Below are positions 2,931 to 41,494 of a stretch of DNA of 60,220 nt, piece by piece. Numbering within the stretch: the stretch's first letter is position 1; every line of letters begins with the position of its first letter. This stretch comes from Thermotogae bacterium (GTDB lineage Bacteria; Thermotogota; Thermotogae; Petrotogales; Petrotogaceae). Below the pieces are notes generated by a model that did no database searches, was not told the origin of the DNA, and worked only from the letters and a program-made list of their open reading frames with translations. The translations under genes and the position numbers were made by a program. The stretch is taken from NCBI GenBank assembly GCA_022704305.1, contig JAKJGQ010000002.1, forward strand, positions 1 through 60,220, written 5' to 3'.

Positions 2931-4096
2931 ATCTGTCCTTGAAGCTTGCTATAAGATTTCTAAAATCCAATAAAGGTCAAACAGTGCTTATAATAGCTGG
3001 AATTGCAGTGGCTGTAGCCATACAGTTGTTCATAGGACTTCTTATAAAAGGCCTTCAGATAAGTCTTGTTCAAAAGACAACAGGCAATACTCCCCAGATA
3101 ACTATAACTTCTACTACTGACGATAAACTTATAAAGCAATGGGAAGAGTTAAGCGGAGAAATTCAATCCTATGCAAGCGAGTATGGTTTGAAAACTGTCA
3201 CACAGACTCTTACATTTCCCGTGGTAATAACTTTTTCCGGTAAAAGCTCTAATCTTCTCATAAGGGGATTTAATTTTGAAAGTTCAAAGCCATTATACGA
3301 TATCAGTAATAAATTAATAGTCGGTAATCTTCCGACTCATGACAATGAAGTTTTAATCGGAGATGAGCTTGCAAAAGATCTAGGAATAAAGATTGGAGAT
3401 AAACTTAATCTTTTTGTTTTTAGGCTCTTTAAGACCAAAGAGCTTTATGTTAGCGGTATATTTGATTTTGGAGTCTCTTCGATAAATAAAAACTGGATTG
3501 TTACTACACTTGAAAATGCACAGACGATAAATAATTCTCAGGAGTACGTTTCGGCTATAGAGATTACTGTTGATAAACTTTTTGAAGCCGATAAAATCTC
3601 AGCTTCTCTAAGAGAAAAGATTCAAAGACAGGATATCCTTTTTGAAGATTGGAAGAGTTCAAACGAACAACTTCTCAGCGGGCTTAATGGTCAAAGTATA
3701 TCCAGTATAATAATCCAGGTTTTTGTGATAATTTCTGTATGTCTTGGAATTGCAAGCGTACTTATAATAACAGTACTTCAGAAGTCAAAGGAAGTAGGAA
3801 TACTTAAAGCTATGGGATTAAAAGATTCCCAGGCAAGTCTTGTATTTCTGTCCGAAGGTTTTTTACTTGGAATGATGGGGGCAGTTGCAGGTATAGTATT
3901 AGGAGTTATACTGTTATTCTTTTTTACTACCTTTGCTGTAAACAGTGATGGTTCGCCAGTTGTTCCTATTATTTTTGATTATACTTTTATAGTAATATCT
4001 GGGATAATAGCCGTGGCAGCATCAACAATATCAGCTATCCTTCCGGCAAAAAAATCTTCAAAACTTTCTCCGGTTGAGGTGATAAGAAATGGCTGA
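2927..4096 (+). CDS. MacB/FtsX-type ABC transporter permease
   Basis: A four-helix MacB-fold permease of 389 residues. The first membrane segment (about residues 15-40) is followed by a large extracytoplasmic MacB_PCD domain (about 45-250). Three C-terminal helices (about 260-285, 310-340, 350-375) form the FtsX domain, which includes the coupling segment KSKEVGILKAMGLKDSQ and ends SPVEVIRNG, a typical terminus. Such proteins move lipoproteins, peptides or antibiotics by mechanotransmission, working as dimers with a separate ATPase. The ATG overlaps the cobalamin-binding gene stop, and the 3' end overlaps the ATPase gene by 8 bases, so this is a single transporter. The substrate is not predictable. 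Confidence 0.9.
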   Translation: MNLSLKLAIRFLKSNKGQTVLIIAGIAVAVAIQLFIGLLIKGLQISLVQKTTGNTPQITITSTTDDKLIKQWEELSGEIQSYASEYGLKTVTQTLTFPVVITFSGKSSNLLIRGFNFESSKPLYDISNKLIVGNLPTHDNEVLIGDELAKDLGIKIGDKLNLFVFRLFKTKELYVSGIFDFGVSSINKNWIVTTLENAQTINNSQEYVSAIEITVDKLFEADKISASLREKIQRQDILFEDWKSSNEQLLSGLNGQSISSIIIQVFVIISVCLGIASVLIITVLQKSKEVGILKAMGLKDSQASLVFLSEGFLLGMMGAVAGIVLGVILLFFFTTFAVNSDGSPVVPIIFDYTFIVISGIIAVAASTISAILPAKKSSKLSPVEVIRNG

Positions 4097-14000: not shown

Positions 14001-15210
14001 CACACTGATGGCAGACAATCTTTATAATCGTGAAATTGTTTTCTATCCAGATATACCCAAAACTACCGAAGGACTGTACCTTAGTTTGGTGGAAAAAAAC
14101 GATCCACATATTGAAGATAAAAATTTCAATGAAGCCATGCAAGTAATCAATCTTATAAATGAGTACAGAAAGAGGTTCCCGAAATATACTATAGGAGTAG
14201 TTACACTTAATTCCCAGCAGAAAGATCTTATTTATTCTGTTCTAAAAGACATAGATGCCAGTGAACCTATTGCAAAAAGTATTTTAGGGCTCATAAAAGA
14301 TGATATTGTTTCAATTGAAGATCATTCGGTTTTGCTCAACGAAAAAAAAGATATCATTATTTTTTCTACCGTGGTATCTTCCTCAACACTTTTTTCCAAT
14401 ATAGAAAAGCTTTCTGCATATGATCTGCTCGAAGAGAAAAAACGTTTTAATACAATTGTTTCTTGTGCGACACATTTGTTACATCTTGTGACTTCGATAG
14501 ATAGCCAGAGCTTTGAAAAATTAAAGACTTTTCCTCAGTGTGTATTTTTTTATAATTTCTTTTCAGCCTTTTTTACAAGAGAAAGCTCGCTAGACTTTTC
14601 AGAGTCTTCACAACGCAAAGAAAACCTTTTTCTTGATTTTTTATGTATAAAGCTTTCAAACGAAGGTCATCAGTGTTTTATACGTAATGACTCATCTGAA
14701 AAGTTTATTCAGTTTAAAAACTCTGAATCAATAATTATTGAGTATGATTTTGAAATTGCAAGAACATGCTTGAATGGAAATGAACGTGAATGCCTTAGAA
14801 ACAGTTATTTTGAACAAAACAACATAAAACCTTACCGTATATGGCTTATAGACTGGGTAAAAGATTTCGCAAAGCAGTATAAGGAACTCATAAAGTTTAT
14901 TGAAACAGCAGAAACTCATACCTTTGTTTCGACTAACAGAAAAAAACGTCAATCTTTCGCTGCTATCGATAAAGAAGATATATGTTCTTCTATTCAAAGC
15001 ATACTTGAACTTTCTTCTCTTTCAGAAAAAGAGATAAAACGTGAAGTAATAAAAAAATTTGGATTTTCAAGATTAACAAAAGAAATGTCAAGCCTCATAG
15101 AAACTTATATTCAGGAACTTCTTCAGAAGGAAATAATTTGTTTCAGTAAGGAGGATAACAGTTATTCAATCAACATTACAGATAAGTCTCAGAGCTTACA
15201 AGAAAGCTGA
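11068..15210 (+). CDS. Degenerate DUF4011 / SF1 helicase / Vsr-like nuclease / DUF3320 protein
   Basis: A 1380-residue protein whose domain order matches large DUF4011 helicase-nucleases. A DUF4011 region (about 1-240) includes SNLIDF, TGISILYLSYGTLKW and SLFNIERYMNFKEL. An SF1 motor covers about 255-1145, a Vsr-like REase region about 1170-1300 and a DUF3320-like tail about 1305-1370. The motor is recognisable from LDKSQQNAV, VLYVYSQEQSASQLKKAL, DLIIIDDASTIYSEDVLP, KRFILAGD, a TRSYN segment and IGVVTLNSQQ. The catalytic residues are not: the P-loop is replaced by SSSFSEKNEVTV, DEAS is DDAS, QLPPT is IGASSPS, the QGxE motif is SVLLNEK, and TRA is SCA. In the nuclease the usual ECDG is IIEYD. 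The frame is open throughout, so it looks maintained. The start is TTG after GGGGGT. Confidence 0.75.
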   Translation: MLFLEEKIKSAYNNLYEFIRNSNLIDFKTDSTSYLEFFTDNIKFSSNGFKSRKEFEINFEKTPADNIQLFFKDEKTFYIRSDEKDKKLVLEHILSDNAFSKKSTGISILYLSYGTLKWKNHVFSQKHLFSPVFLMPISVLRKNENQYLLKIHSEQFIFNPFLKDSLVDMLDCSLLDNHAESFFKDMPEKIPIDWEINQRLFLSLFNIERYMNFKELENRKERLLSLSIVKTLYSSDEKSYTTVEKEKIYRPMKILPVSILDKSQQNAVKLYKKNNDNYAVFSSSFSEKNEVTVNIILQALAEQKNVLYVYSQEQSASQLKKALKERYLDNIYISPEQTSGKNTDTLKKILTSLDSLDISTRKSDTSTAEDDLISQYEKSENILSEYYITLNTFLGKTGLKVSEVFERYLVFTFKRNPTYRIPNVKSMSIESFSENQSILNEFSLYSDIYKIYNDHPLRELCLEHFEDVSSVDSLKPLFTEYLKYLNFIDSYIKKLIPESKNTIDSSYIDSFIEILRLLKELELIDLTIKTLFTKSRETLLTFCEKLKFFCDSYELARKRFTEEIFFSIPETELMLEHYIANKDKQFRNFLPQFSIAKKYFIKNLRAPSDKPNIDVFISDLHRTFSERQELLADSDFTNIVGAYLKNSRPNIAVLKKIVDDLRSILILIDTSKIPFYIVQNYEQVTDSEINYLKTDFSAFKKIIPSVHCPDSLISQKIELTEKIVNNSFMIVQWFEFTKWLEKLTGKELNAFLDYFCSENFDISVISEVYEETFLLSCIENIFINFPVLRNCDPKYFSDISKKYRVYSEQYVEKNLYDFTGKYKNKSIEPEKILELRKLLFSNIQDISSADLKKIINDNFNIIKEIVPLVILPILSVPDYFFMAEEIFDLIIIDDASTIYSEDVLPLFLKGKRFILAGDIGASSPSKASFSVDNFFNIRSFETDIKNNFSKNILELALESDMPAVKLTRSYNRLYNRLTTLMADNLYNREIVFYPDIPKTTEGLYLSLVEKNDPHIEDKNFNEAMQVINLINEYRKRFPKYTIGVVTLNSQQKDLIYSVLKDIDASEPIAKSILGLIKDDIVSIEDHSVLLNEKKDIIIFSTVVSSSTLFSNIEKLSAYDLLEEKKRFNTIVSCATHLLHLVTSIDSQSFEKLKTFPQCVFFYNFFSAFFTRESSLDFSESSQRKENLFLDFLCIKLSNEGHQCFIRNDSSEKFIQFKNSESIIIEYDFEIARTCLNGNERECLRNSYFEQNNIKPYRIWLIDWVKDFAKQYKELIKFIETAETHTFVSTNRKKRQSFAAIDKEDICSSIQSILELSSLSEKEIKREVIKKFGFSRLTKEMSSLIETYIQELLQKEIICFSKEDNSYSINITDKSQSLQES
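15148..15166 (+). promoter_or_regulatory. Ribosome site followed by a probable ATT start codon
   Basis: AAGGAGG at 15148-15154 lies nine bases before ATT 15164 in the acetyltransferase frame. No ATG, GTG or TTG exists in that frame between this site and ATG 15233. The residues in between match the conserved N-terminus of the family. Confidence 0.6.
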
Positions 15211-15709
15211 CGTTATTAACTTTAATGAGGTCATGAATGATGAAAGTATACTCATAAATCTTTTTACGCAAATTACTTTTCCTACAAATGCTGAGAAAGA
15301 AGAAGCATGGATTGACTCTTTTTCACCTGATTCTTTGTGTGAATATATTCTGGCTGTTCAGAAAAATGATACTGGTAAGTTTATAGGTGGTATAGAAATA
15401 AATAACTTGGATCTGAAAAACAGAAACTGTACGATAGCTGTCTATATGCATCCAGATTATCTTGGAAAGGGAGTTGGTACACAAGCCATCAATATTCTTT
15501 TAGACTTTCTTTTTCAAAGATTTTCTCTTAACAAGATAAAGCTTAATGTTTTTGATTATAATGAAAGAGCTATAAAAAGCTATAAAAAAGTTGGTTTTGT
15601 TGAAGAAGGCGTATTAAGACAGGAACTGTTTACTTTGAATAAGTATCACGATATTGTTATGATGTCCATTTTGAAACAGGAGTGGAACCGACATGACGCA
15701 AAGAACTAA
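15164..15709 (+). CDS. GNAT (RimJ/RimL-like) acetyltransferase with apparent ATT start
   Basis: A GNAT N-acetyltransferase of about 181 residues. The acetyl-CoA loop is YLGKGVGTQAI, and the C-terminal NERAIKSYKKVGFVEEGVLRQ is typical of RimJ/RimL-like enzymes acting on protein N-termini or small amines. The first ATG (15233) would remove strand 1. The sequence upstream of it in the same frame reads ISLRAYKKADVINFNEV, the standard RimL-type opening, and an AAGGAGG site lies just before it. The best placed codon is ATT 15164, a rare start known for infC. The gene overlaps the helicase-like gene by 47 bases and the TetR gene by 17, so all three are coupled. Confidence 0.8.
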   Translation: MQSTLQISLRAYKKADVINFNEVMNDESILINLFTQITFPTNAEKEEAWIDSFSPDSLCEYILAVQKNDTGKFIGGIEINNLDLKNRNCTIAVYMHPDYLGKGVGTQAINILLDFLFQRFSLNKIKLNVFDYNERAIKSYKKVGFVEEGVLRQELFTLNKYHDIVMMSILKQEWNRHDAKN

Positions 15710-38736: not shown

Positions 38737-40287
38737 TCACACCTCGTCGCTGTTATATTCTTTAACACTGATTTTTCCGGAAGGTTTGATCTGACCATTT
38801 AAAACCTTAAGAAGCGAGCTCTGTGAAACCAGTTCATAACCATATGTCAACAAAGAGTTTCTAACTCCTTTTATGAAACAGTCGTAGGGATTTCTTAAAG
38901 CTATTATAAGCGATTTGGGAGAAATTTTACATAGTTCTTCGACAAGCTTTCTCTGACCCGTTTTCAAATGCGCATTTTCTGTAAAAACTATATTTACTTT
39001 GGAACAATTAATATCTTTCAAAAGATCTTTTATCCCATCAAGCTTGATTTCAGGATCTATTACACAGATTTCTTTCTTGAATAGCTGTCCAATTTGTCTT
39101 GCAACCATAGGAATACCCTCATTAGGACCATCTTCTACTTGAACCTGTCTGGTAAGCCTTACCGAAAAAACCTTCCCAACGTCATCACTTTTTAGAGGAA
39201 GAATTGATTCGTCAGATATTCTGCTGGTCACTGACCTATCGGTGATTTTTTGAATCAGCTCCAAACTTTTTTTGGATCCTATGTCCGAAATACAGTATTC
39301 TTGATTTGGAAAATCATTAGCTTTTTCTGAAAACTTTTCTATTCTTGTAAAAGATTCTGAAACTCTTTCATAAACAGTCTCATCCTTTTGAACCATACTG
39401 CACAGATAGTTGTATACGCGAATTTGCACAAGAGGATCATGGCAAAAAGTAAGAACGTCCATTCCGGCTTTTAAAGACATAATCATGGCTTGTTCGGGTG
39501 AATAGTAATTGCTCACTCCTCCCATGGAAAGATCATCCGATACCAAAACGCCTTTGTATCCGAGTTTCTGCCTTGCCAATACGGTAAGGACTTCATATGA
39601 AAGGGAAGCTGGTTCCTTGACTCTCTGAATAGACGGAATATATATGTGTGACGGCATTATAGATTCGCATGCAAGTTCTCTGAAAGGTCTGAGTTCGAAT
39701 TCCATAAGCTCTTTTTCGTTAATATCAAGAATAGGAAGATCAATGTGAGCATCTACACTTACCCTGCCTTTACCGGGAAAATGCTTTAGACATGTCATCA
39801 CACCTTCTTCATGCATTGCATTCACAAATTGTTTTGAGTTCTCAATAACCTTGTCTATAGAATCAGAATAACTTCTCACTCCTATTCCTGGATTTTTAGG
39901 ATTACAGTTAATATCCACCACCGGAGCAAGATTCCAATTTATGCCTATGGCTTTCATCTCTCTGGCTAATATCTTAGAAACATCATAGATACAATCAGGA
40001 TCATTTACAGCAGTCAAAGCCATTGAACCGGGGGAAACAGAAAATCCTTCCCGCAAACGGCTCACTATCCCGCCCTCTTGATCAATTGATATAAGAGGTT
40101 TGTATCCTAAAAAAGTATTTATATCGTCCACAAGCTTTTTGATTTGTTGAGGACTTACTATATTCCTTGCAAAAAGAATTATAGCCCCAGGCATTATATG
40201 TCCCAGTAGGCGCTTGGTTTCATCATCCAGAACTGCCGAAGGAATACCTATCATAAATAATTTTCCGTTTTTACTCTCCTGCATCAT
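38737..40287 (-). CDS. nagZ: Beta-N-acetylglucosaminidase (GH3, NagZ-like)
   Basis: A GH3 glycosidase that removes terminal GlcNAc from GlcNAc-MurNAc or GlcNAc-anhydroMurNAc. Its 516 residues comprise a catalytic TIM barrel (about 1-330) and a second alpha/beta domain (about 370-500), the two-domain NagZ form of Gram-positive bacteria. SIDQEGGIVSRL, KHFPGKG (KHFPGHG in most homologues), the mobile-loop DAHIDLP with its catalytic His, and VSDDLSMGGV with the nucleophile Asp are all visible. There is no signal peptide, so it should act in the cytoplasm on imported disaccharides. GGAGGGA precedes the start within the end of namZ. Confidence 0.93.
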   Translation of the reverse strand: MMQESKNGKLFMIGIPSAVLDDETKRLLGHIMPGAIILFARNIVSPQQIKKLVDDINTFLGYKPLISIDQEGGIVSRLREGFSVSPGSMALTAVNDPDCIYDVSKILAREMKAIGINWNLAPVVDINCNPKNPGIGVRSYSDSIDKVIENSKQFVNAMHEEGVMTCLKHFPGKGRVSVDAHIDLPILDINEKELMEFELRPFRELACESIMPSHIYIPSIQRVKEPASLSYEVLTVLARQKLGYKGVLVSDDLSMGGVSNYYSPEQAMIMSLKAGMDVLTFCHDPLVQIRVYNYLCSMVQKDETVYERVSESFTRIEKFSEKANDFPNQEYCISDIGSKKSLELIQKITDRSVTSRISDESILPLKSDDVGKVFSVRLTRQVQVEDGPNEGIPMVARQIGQLFKKEICVIDPEIKLDGIKDLLKDINCSKVNIVFTENAHLKTGQRKLVEELCKISPKSLIIALRNPYDCFIKGVRNSLLTYGYELVSQSSLLKVLNGQIKPSGKISVKEYNSDEV

Positions 40288-40289
40288 TA

Positions 40290-41399
40290 TTAGTCCCTCC
40301 CATACAACAAAATATCTTCATTACTCTGCATAAACTCCTTGCTTTCTTTTTCCCACGAATCGAAACTGAACTTTTCACTATTTTCTATACTGAGTCTGAA
40401 TTTTCTATCTGCTGTAAGCTTGTCCATACCTTCGTTAATTAAAAGCTTACCGGATCTGAAACAGTATTGTAGGATACTATGACTTATGACAAAAAAATTA
40501 TCTTTCAGCGAAGGGAAAAATTCTGCTCCAAAACACAACTCTGCCTTATATTTTCTATCGAATGGAACAAAAGTTCTTTCCCTAACTTTTAAATCTGGAA
40601 ACTTATTATGAAGATACGCTACGAGTCCTCTGCTGTCCACCCATGGTGCACCAATATACTCAAAAGGTTTATATGTTCCTCTTCCTTCGCTCAAATTTGT
40701 TTGCTCAAAAAAGCAAAAACCAGCATACGCCAATAAAGAGTTAAAGGTAGGTAAGGCTGGTGACGGAACATTCCAAAGTTCATTTCCTTGACAAAAGTAC
40801 TCTCCATTCCATCCAGCACATTTTATTATTCTCAAATCAAGATCTAGCGAGTACTTTTTCTTTATGTACAGGGCTAGTTCTCCATTTGTTAAGCCATATG
40901 AAGCAGGTAAAAAGCAATCTCCTACAAATGAGGAAAGTTCAGGAAGAATTACTTTGCCAAACACATACCTTCCCAAAGGATTGGGTCTGTCAAGAATCAT
41001 AAATATCTTACCTTGATCTGCAGCCGCTTTCATACAGTAAAACATTGTATATATAAACGTGTAAAATCTTAAACCAACTGATTCAATGTCAAAAATCAAA
41101 GCATCCAGACCATCATAATCATTTTGAGATGGATAATTATTTTTCCCGTAAAGACTTTTTACAGGAATTCTACCTGTCCCATAAAAGGAATCCTCAATAT
41201 GCTGACCATCTGGCAGACCATATATTCCATGCTCCGGAGAAAATATCTTACTTACCTTTATTCCTTTGTCTATAAACATTTCCAAAGCATTTTCCATTCT
41301 ACGTGTAAAAAAAGAATAGTTTATTATAAGTCCCAGTTTTTTACCTCTTATCTGTCTAAAATCATTTTCTGCTAAAATGTCAATACCGTTATACCAAAT
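40290..41399 (-). CDS. namZ: Exo-beta-N-acetylmuramidase NamZ (DUF1343, GH171), apparent ATT start
   Basis: NamZ releases MurNAc from the non-reducing end of peptidoglycan fragments, as shown for Bacillus YbbC. FSPEHGIYG, DALIFDIESVGLRFYTFIYTM, LDRPNPLG, SYGLTNGELALY and NLSEGRGTYKPFEYIGAPW are characteristic. The first ATG (41297) would remove a conserved opening that reads GIDILAENDFRQIRGKKLGLI in frame upstream. Between the in-frame stop at 41420 and that ATG there is no ATG, GTG or TTG. ATT 41399 sits six bases after GGAGGG and about 30 bases after a promoter. The resulting 369 residues have no signal peptide, implying a cytoplasmic role. Confidence 0.88.
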   Translation of the reverse strand: MWYNGIDILAENDFRQIRGKKLGLIINYSFFTRRMENALEMFIDKGIKVSKIFSPEHGIYGLPDGQHIEDSFYGTGRIPVKSLYGKNNYPSQNDYDGLDALIFDIESVGLRFYTFIYTMFYCMKAAADQGKIFMILDRPNPLGRYVFGKVILPELSSFVGDCFLPASYGLTNGELALYIKKKYSLDLDLRIIKCAGWNGEYFCQGNELWNVPSPALPTFNSLLAYAGFCFFEQTNLSEGRGTYKPFEYIGAPWVDSRGLVAYLHNKFPDLKVRERTFVPFDRKYKAELCFGAEFFPSLKDNFFVISHSILQYCFRSGKLLINEGMDKLTADRKFRLSIENSEKFSFDSWEKESKEFMQSNEDILLYGRD

Positions 41400-41405
41400 A
41401 GTAAT

Positions 41406-41442
41406 CCCTCCATGTACTTACTTTGTACTATCTTATATTCTA
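41406..41442 (-). promoter_or_regulatory. namZ promoter -10 box, leader and ribosome site
   Basis: On the minus strand TTGACA (complement of 41461-41466), an 18-base spacer and TAGAAT (complement of 41437-41442) form a good promoter. The leader is only about 30 bases and contains GGAGGG (complement of 41406-41411) directly before the ATT start. Confidence 0.65.
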
Positions 41443-41459
41443 AATGTTTATCTATATGC

Positions 41460-41494
41460 TTGTCAAACATATTTTTGTATAATGTATATACAAA
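41460..41494. promoter_or_regulatory. Divergent promoter with GntR-like operator (namZ operon / ABC importer operon)
   Basis: TTTGTATA (41474-41481) and TATACAAA (41487-41494) form an 8-bp inverted repeat with a five-base spacer, the size expected for a HutC-type operator. It lies just upstream of the namZ -35 and overlaps a plus-strand TTGTCA-17-TGTATA promoter candidate for the importer genes. The remaining bases to the importer start are AT-rich with no ORF. Confidence 0.55.

Follow-up and report, generated by a model that had tools for sequence, protein, structure and literature searches.

Start codon of namZ

The namZ frame of this Petrotogaceae genome carries a conserved N-terminus upstream of its first ATG, which raises the question of where its translation begins. 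In the window (the whole stretch of 60,220 nucleotides that was analysed), stop-to-stop reading gives an intact namZ frame of 375 codons at 40290-41417 on the minus strand. A scan of this entire frame finds no ATG, GTG or TTG ahead of the ATG at 41297, which is codon 41. The features of the region are as follows.

41437..41466, minus strand: candidate promoter TTGACA-N18-TAGAAT, 11 of 12 consensus matches, conserved in the sister species G001
41418..41420, minus strand: TAA in the namZ frame, upstream of the ATT, read from the sequence
41406..41411, minus strand: namZ Shine-Dalgarno GGAGGG, spacer 6, duplex -12.0 kcal/mol, conserved in G001
41397..41399, minus strand: putative namZ ATT start codon, in the column of the ATG of Petrotogaceae and Mesotoga-type relatives, identical in the sister species
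41295..41297, minus strand: first in-frame namZ ATG, within the NamZ domain, without Shine-Dalgarno (duplex +0.2 kcal/mol)
40290..41399, minus strand: predicted namZ coding sequence from the ATT, exo-beta-N-acetylmuramidase, 369 aa, PF07075 and PF20732 above cut-off
38737..40287, minus strand: nagZ-like GH3 gene downstream of namZ, ordinary ATG start with its own Shine-Dalgarno

The sequence-only reading had placed the start at the ATT, six bases from GGAGGG, with an in-frame stop at 41420 and no standard start before 41297, and all of these coordinates agree. The Shine-Dalgarno duplex compares with a median of -10.6 kcal/mol for ATG starts, and mRNA structure around the start is ordinary (z = 0.54). 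Counted from the candidate promoter at 41466-41437, the leader would be roughly 30 bases long, in line with the earlier estimate, though promoter-like sites of any quality are expected in similar numbers in shuffled sequence.

Both NamZ domains are found by profile search, PF07075 (NamZ_N) with 195 bits and PF20732 (NamZ_C) with 99.7 bits. The PF07075 match starts with frame residue 29, and a start at 41297 would therefore cut into the domain. Translation from this ATG, with the upstream stretch untranslated, has in its favour that the codon is the first standard start in the frame, but it has no Shine-Dalgarno and would lose the first NamZ strand, which is conserved in the protein across genera; we regard it as very improbable. 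In the neighbourhood, namZ heads a muropeptide-recycling run of the nagZ-like GH3 gene, a murQ-like SIS gene, a GntR regulator and a BadF-like kinase, the last two named by eye from the sequence.

At 41413 lies an ATG out of frame with namZ; it opens 13 codons across the namZ start (window 41413-41372, minus strand), a frame that is conserved in G001 and is possibly a competing or regulatory upstream frame. The same conservation could fit a start at 41413 followed by ribosomal frameshifting into the namZ frame. However, the 13 codons hold no slippery heptamer, no Shine-Dalgarno precedes the ATG, and the start codon of the relatives aligns with the ATT at 41399 and not with 41413, so this route is exceedingly unlikely.

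Conservation of the ATT codon

G001 is a sister species, an uncultured Petrotoga MAG (CALMRR010000148.1), independently assembled and 97% identical at namZ; it is the one genome in the sister-species comparison. About 120 bases spanning the namZ leader and start are identical in G001, including the ATT and the upstream TAA. The sequence-only reading would have been overturned by an ATG at 41399 on resequencing, and this independent assembly has ATT. The genome comes from a metagenome assembly in 244 contigs, fragmented and 80% complete, which leaves room for a sequencing error or the decayed start of a pseudogene. As G001 carries the same start region, a sequencing error is very unlikely; the 375-codon frame is moreover intact and 98% conserved in protein, and error or decay together are scarcely credible.

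In more distant relatives, NamZ (45-50% identity) begins with M-x-x-x-G-[IL]-D and has a good ATG. In other Petrotogaceae and Mesotoga-type relatives this ATG lies four codons ahead of Gly-[Ile/Leu]-Asp, the exact position of the ATT at 41399. The AUU is thus genus-specific, with ATG in relatives of other genera.

Judged from these sequence features, namZ is very probably translated from the AUU at 41399, as one member of a set of genes with apparent AUU, AUC or AUA starts (together AUH) that in Petrotogaceae makes up about 2% of the genes sampled.

A second case in the window

15137..15709, plus strand: GNAT acetyltransferase frame, apparent ATT start at 15164-15166, AGGAGG upstream

The two ATT cases reported for this window both stand. 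The GNAT ATT at 15164 has a Shine-Dalgarno energy of -11.1 and aligns with ATG or GTG in all ten of ten relatives, and the first ATG of the frame, at 15233, has a poor Shine-Dalgarno. Its start region is identical in G001, as are those of infC, addB, the MocR-like regulator and the gene with CTG; the G001 comparison takes in five of the ten AUH cases of the genome sample, the other five coming from its second half. In addB (L095), the ATC at 3368 aligns with the ATG of relatives, and AUH occupies the ancestral start column in the three of three genes tested (namZ, GNAT, addB). Since the GNAT and namZ start regions are conserved in the sister species and their ATTs lie on the start column of relatives, more than chance is at work.

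From the ATT, the first 47 bases or so of the GNAT frame lie over the 3' end of an upstream 1380-aa gene (window 15164-15210). From this overlap, translational coupling of GNAT to the upstream gene is possible.

AUH starts across the genome and the family

Bacterial AUH starts are known from a handful of genes per genome, mostly infC. The sample of the own genome (G000) covers 685 kb of 2.04 Mb, about a third, with 559 coding frames. Frames lacking a standard start supported by a Shine-Dalgarno, but with a Shine-Dalgarno plus AUH, were curated by eye, yielding ten AUH starts and one CUG, about 2% of sampled genes. Several automatic candidates were dropped on reading, among them frames that have a good ATG or GTG slightly further in, and a transposase. 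Cases outside the window, with gene names that represent a reading of the sequence and not profile hits, include the following.

L094:350: MocR-like regulator, ATT start
L195:9992: histidine phosphatase, ATT start, reads MRLLIIRHGQS
L200:3451: LPG-synthase-like membrane protein, ATT start
L195:3211: phosphotriesterase-like protein, ATT start, or the next codon, ATA
L095, 3368: addB, ATC start
L188:16233: ECF transporter S-component, ATC start
L083:6279: infC, ATA start
L199:8516: P-loop protein, ATA start, RFFTFSGPPSSGKT
L102:8475: small membrane protein, CTG start

In six other Petrotogaceae (503 frames), curation gives about nine or ten AUH starts, mostly ATA, whereas five genomes of other families (463 frames) yield about one AUH candidate and three with CTG. 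The difference has a Fisher P of 0.007 on these curated counts, made by one reader from samples of 100-200 kb for each relative. The proposal that real ATT initiation recurs in this lineage, which an absence of further cases would have contradicted, is supported by the AUH starts in both the own-genome third and the six Petrotogaceae.

In a codon-blind test, orphan frames were taken, the best Shine-Dalgarno was chosen regardless of codon, and the codon at the spacing of standard genes was read. AUH stands at the position set by the Shine-Dalgarno in 6 of 12 orphan frames in G000 (expected 11%, P = 0.001) and in half of the 14 from other Petrotogaceae (7; expected 18%, P = 0.006), and in none of the seven from other Thermotogota families. 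This strict version misses namZ, infC and the MocR-like gene because a spurious Shine-Dalgarno lies further in. Median Shine-Dalgarno energies are -12.8 for AUH starts against -10.6 for ATG starts, a comparison biased by the selection threshold.

Common gene finders accept only ATG, GTG and TTG, and where AUH starts are used the N-termini of real genes are therefore misannotated in these Petrotogaceae genomes.

Initiation factor IF3 and the initiator tRNA

The classical IF3-controlled gene is infC, which has an AUH start with a strong Shine-Dalgarno in nearly all Thermotogota examined; their recovery validates the detection. Among the nine Petrotogaceae sequences read, the infC start is ATA in eight and ATT in one.

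Inspection of IF3, which the sequence-only reading had recommended, reveals that a codon-contacting residue has changed from Arg to Leu throughout the family. Where other Thermotogota have the motif MFRGRE[MI] in the alignment, Petrotogaceae have MFLGRDI (own IF3 at L083 5737-6285, G000:C166). A DNA pattern for MFLGRDI matches IF3 in all 21 Petrotogaceae genomes searched. Among 82 genomes from other families, none gives a match in IF3, and the Arg version of the pattern has no match in any Petrotogaceae genome searched. One further MFLGRDI match, in G091 of another family, is located outside IF3.

Alignment with Thermus IF3 (chain 5lmn_X) identifies the changed residue as Arg123, adjoining Gly124 and Arg125. 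Of the other codon-contacting arginines, Arg91 is kept in Petrotogaceae and the Arg159 position is occupied by Arg or Lys. Thermus Arg123 corresponds to Arg131 of E. coli; the infC362 allele there, reportedly R131P, is given no evidential weight here. In Thermus 30S complexes, Arg123 touches the start codon at the U+2 backbone and, at a later stage, the +4 base; the authors of that work suggest that it may play an indirect part in codon discrimination (PMC5037330). Start codons other than AUG, GUG and UUG are discriminated against by IF3 (PMC4611024). The initiator tRNA in Petrotogaceae has a normal CAU anticodon and the GGG:CCC stem, which rules out an altered initiator; a GAU-like match in G001 is no tRNA.

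Proposed mechanism and origin of the AUH excess

At the namZ AUU, the initiator tRNA (CAU) would pair with A1 and U2 and mismatch at the third base, a mismatch that the strong, well-spaced Shine-Dalgarno could compensate. From measured AUH cases and the known biology of AUU starts, a namZ yield well below that of AUG and dependent on free IF3 is proposed. The family-wide Leu in IF3 could have lowered stringency, letting AUH starts accumulate. We infer ribosome initiation at the AUU, its reduced rate, its control by IF3 and the relaxation of AUH rejection by the IF3 change.

A tentative account of the family, possible but short of probable, is that its IF3 is naturally relaxed: Arg123 was replaced by Leu in the ancestor, and AUH starts then spread to about 2% of genes, which annotation truncates or misses. 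We hypothesize a causal link between the AUH excess and the IF3 change. Because the latter is one evolutionary change, the correlation is in effect one data point.

AT-rich mutational drift, tolerated where low expression is harmless and leaving IF3 stringency unchanged, is a live alternative as the source of the excess, and one we hold to be about as credible. In its favour, Petrotogaceae genomes have a low GC content (0.25-0.37), AUH starts turn up in genes unrelated to one another, and the namZ AUU is specific to the genus. Against drift, G056, a genome of another family with 30% GC, has about one AUH candidate in 87 frames, and the strong Shine-Dalgarnos at AUH starts suggest functional starts. 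A family with AUH starts at about 2% of the genes sampled, together with a fixed change at a codon-contacting IF3 residue, would be a natural experiment on the evolution of start-codon stringency.

Relation to known non-canonical starts

AUH starts as such are already known; what is new here is their excess across the lineage, together with the change in IF3. Autoregulated infC resembles namZ in its AUH start, strong Shine-Dalgarno and lack of a standard alternative, whereas namZ is metabolic and has no feedback on IF3. In S. aureus, cvfC1 (AUU), ccpN (AUA) and infC (AUA) have extended Shine-Dalgarnos, and in poor medium the tested AUH sites reach about 10% of the output of AUG (PMC13009471). 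Like namZ, cvfC1 and ccpN combine AUH and an extended Shine-Dalgarno with conservation among close relatives; they were shown by ribosome profiling and reporters, as two new cases in a genome (PMC13009471), where a third of G000 gives about ten.

The GTC start of Streptomyces sigR is likewise non-canonical and expected to be rejected by IF3, but it is GTC rather than ATT and has a demonstrated regulatory role (PMC5472188). Like namZ, Borrelia burgdorferi pncA (BBE22) is an enzyme gene with an AUU start and a conserved N-terminus upstream of the first standard start; there the AUU is experimentally proved, in a single reported gene (PMC13398362).

Other possible unusual starts

Apparent ATA starts, each preceded by a Shine-Dalgarno in a frame that lacks a usable standard codon, are seen in tsaD (L107:7311-8351, G004) and rsmH (L110:18569-19495, G012; other Petrotogaceae). 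Possible CTG starts lie at L102:8475, L218:1573-2259 and L223:4720-5646, and thus also in families with normal IF3, where the genes are QueT-like and mraY. A radical-SAM-like frame on the minus strand of L051 (offset 3867) has the Shine-Dalgarno GAGGTGATATTT followed by ACG, which may be an unusual start. In the hydroxylamine reductase-like gene at L094:12556-14193 (G000:C161), the Cys motif of the N-terminus, MFCYQCSEA, is encoded ahead of a TGA in a different frame, and this arrangement suggests either a frameshift or an error of assembly close to an ACA-rich repeat.
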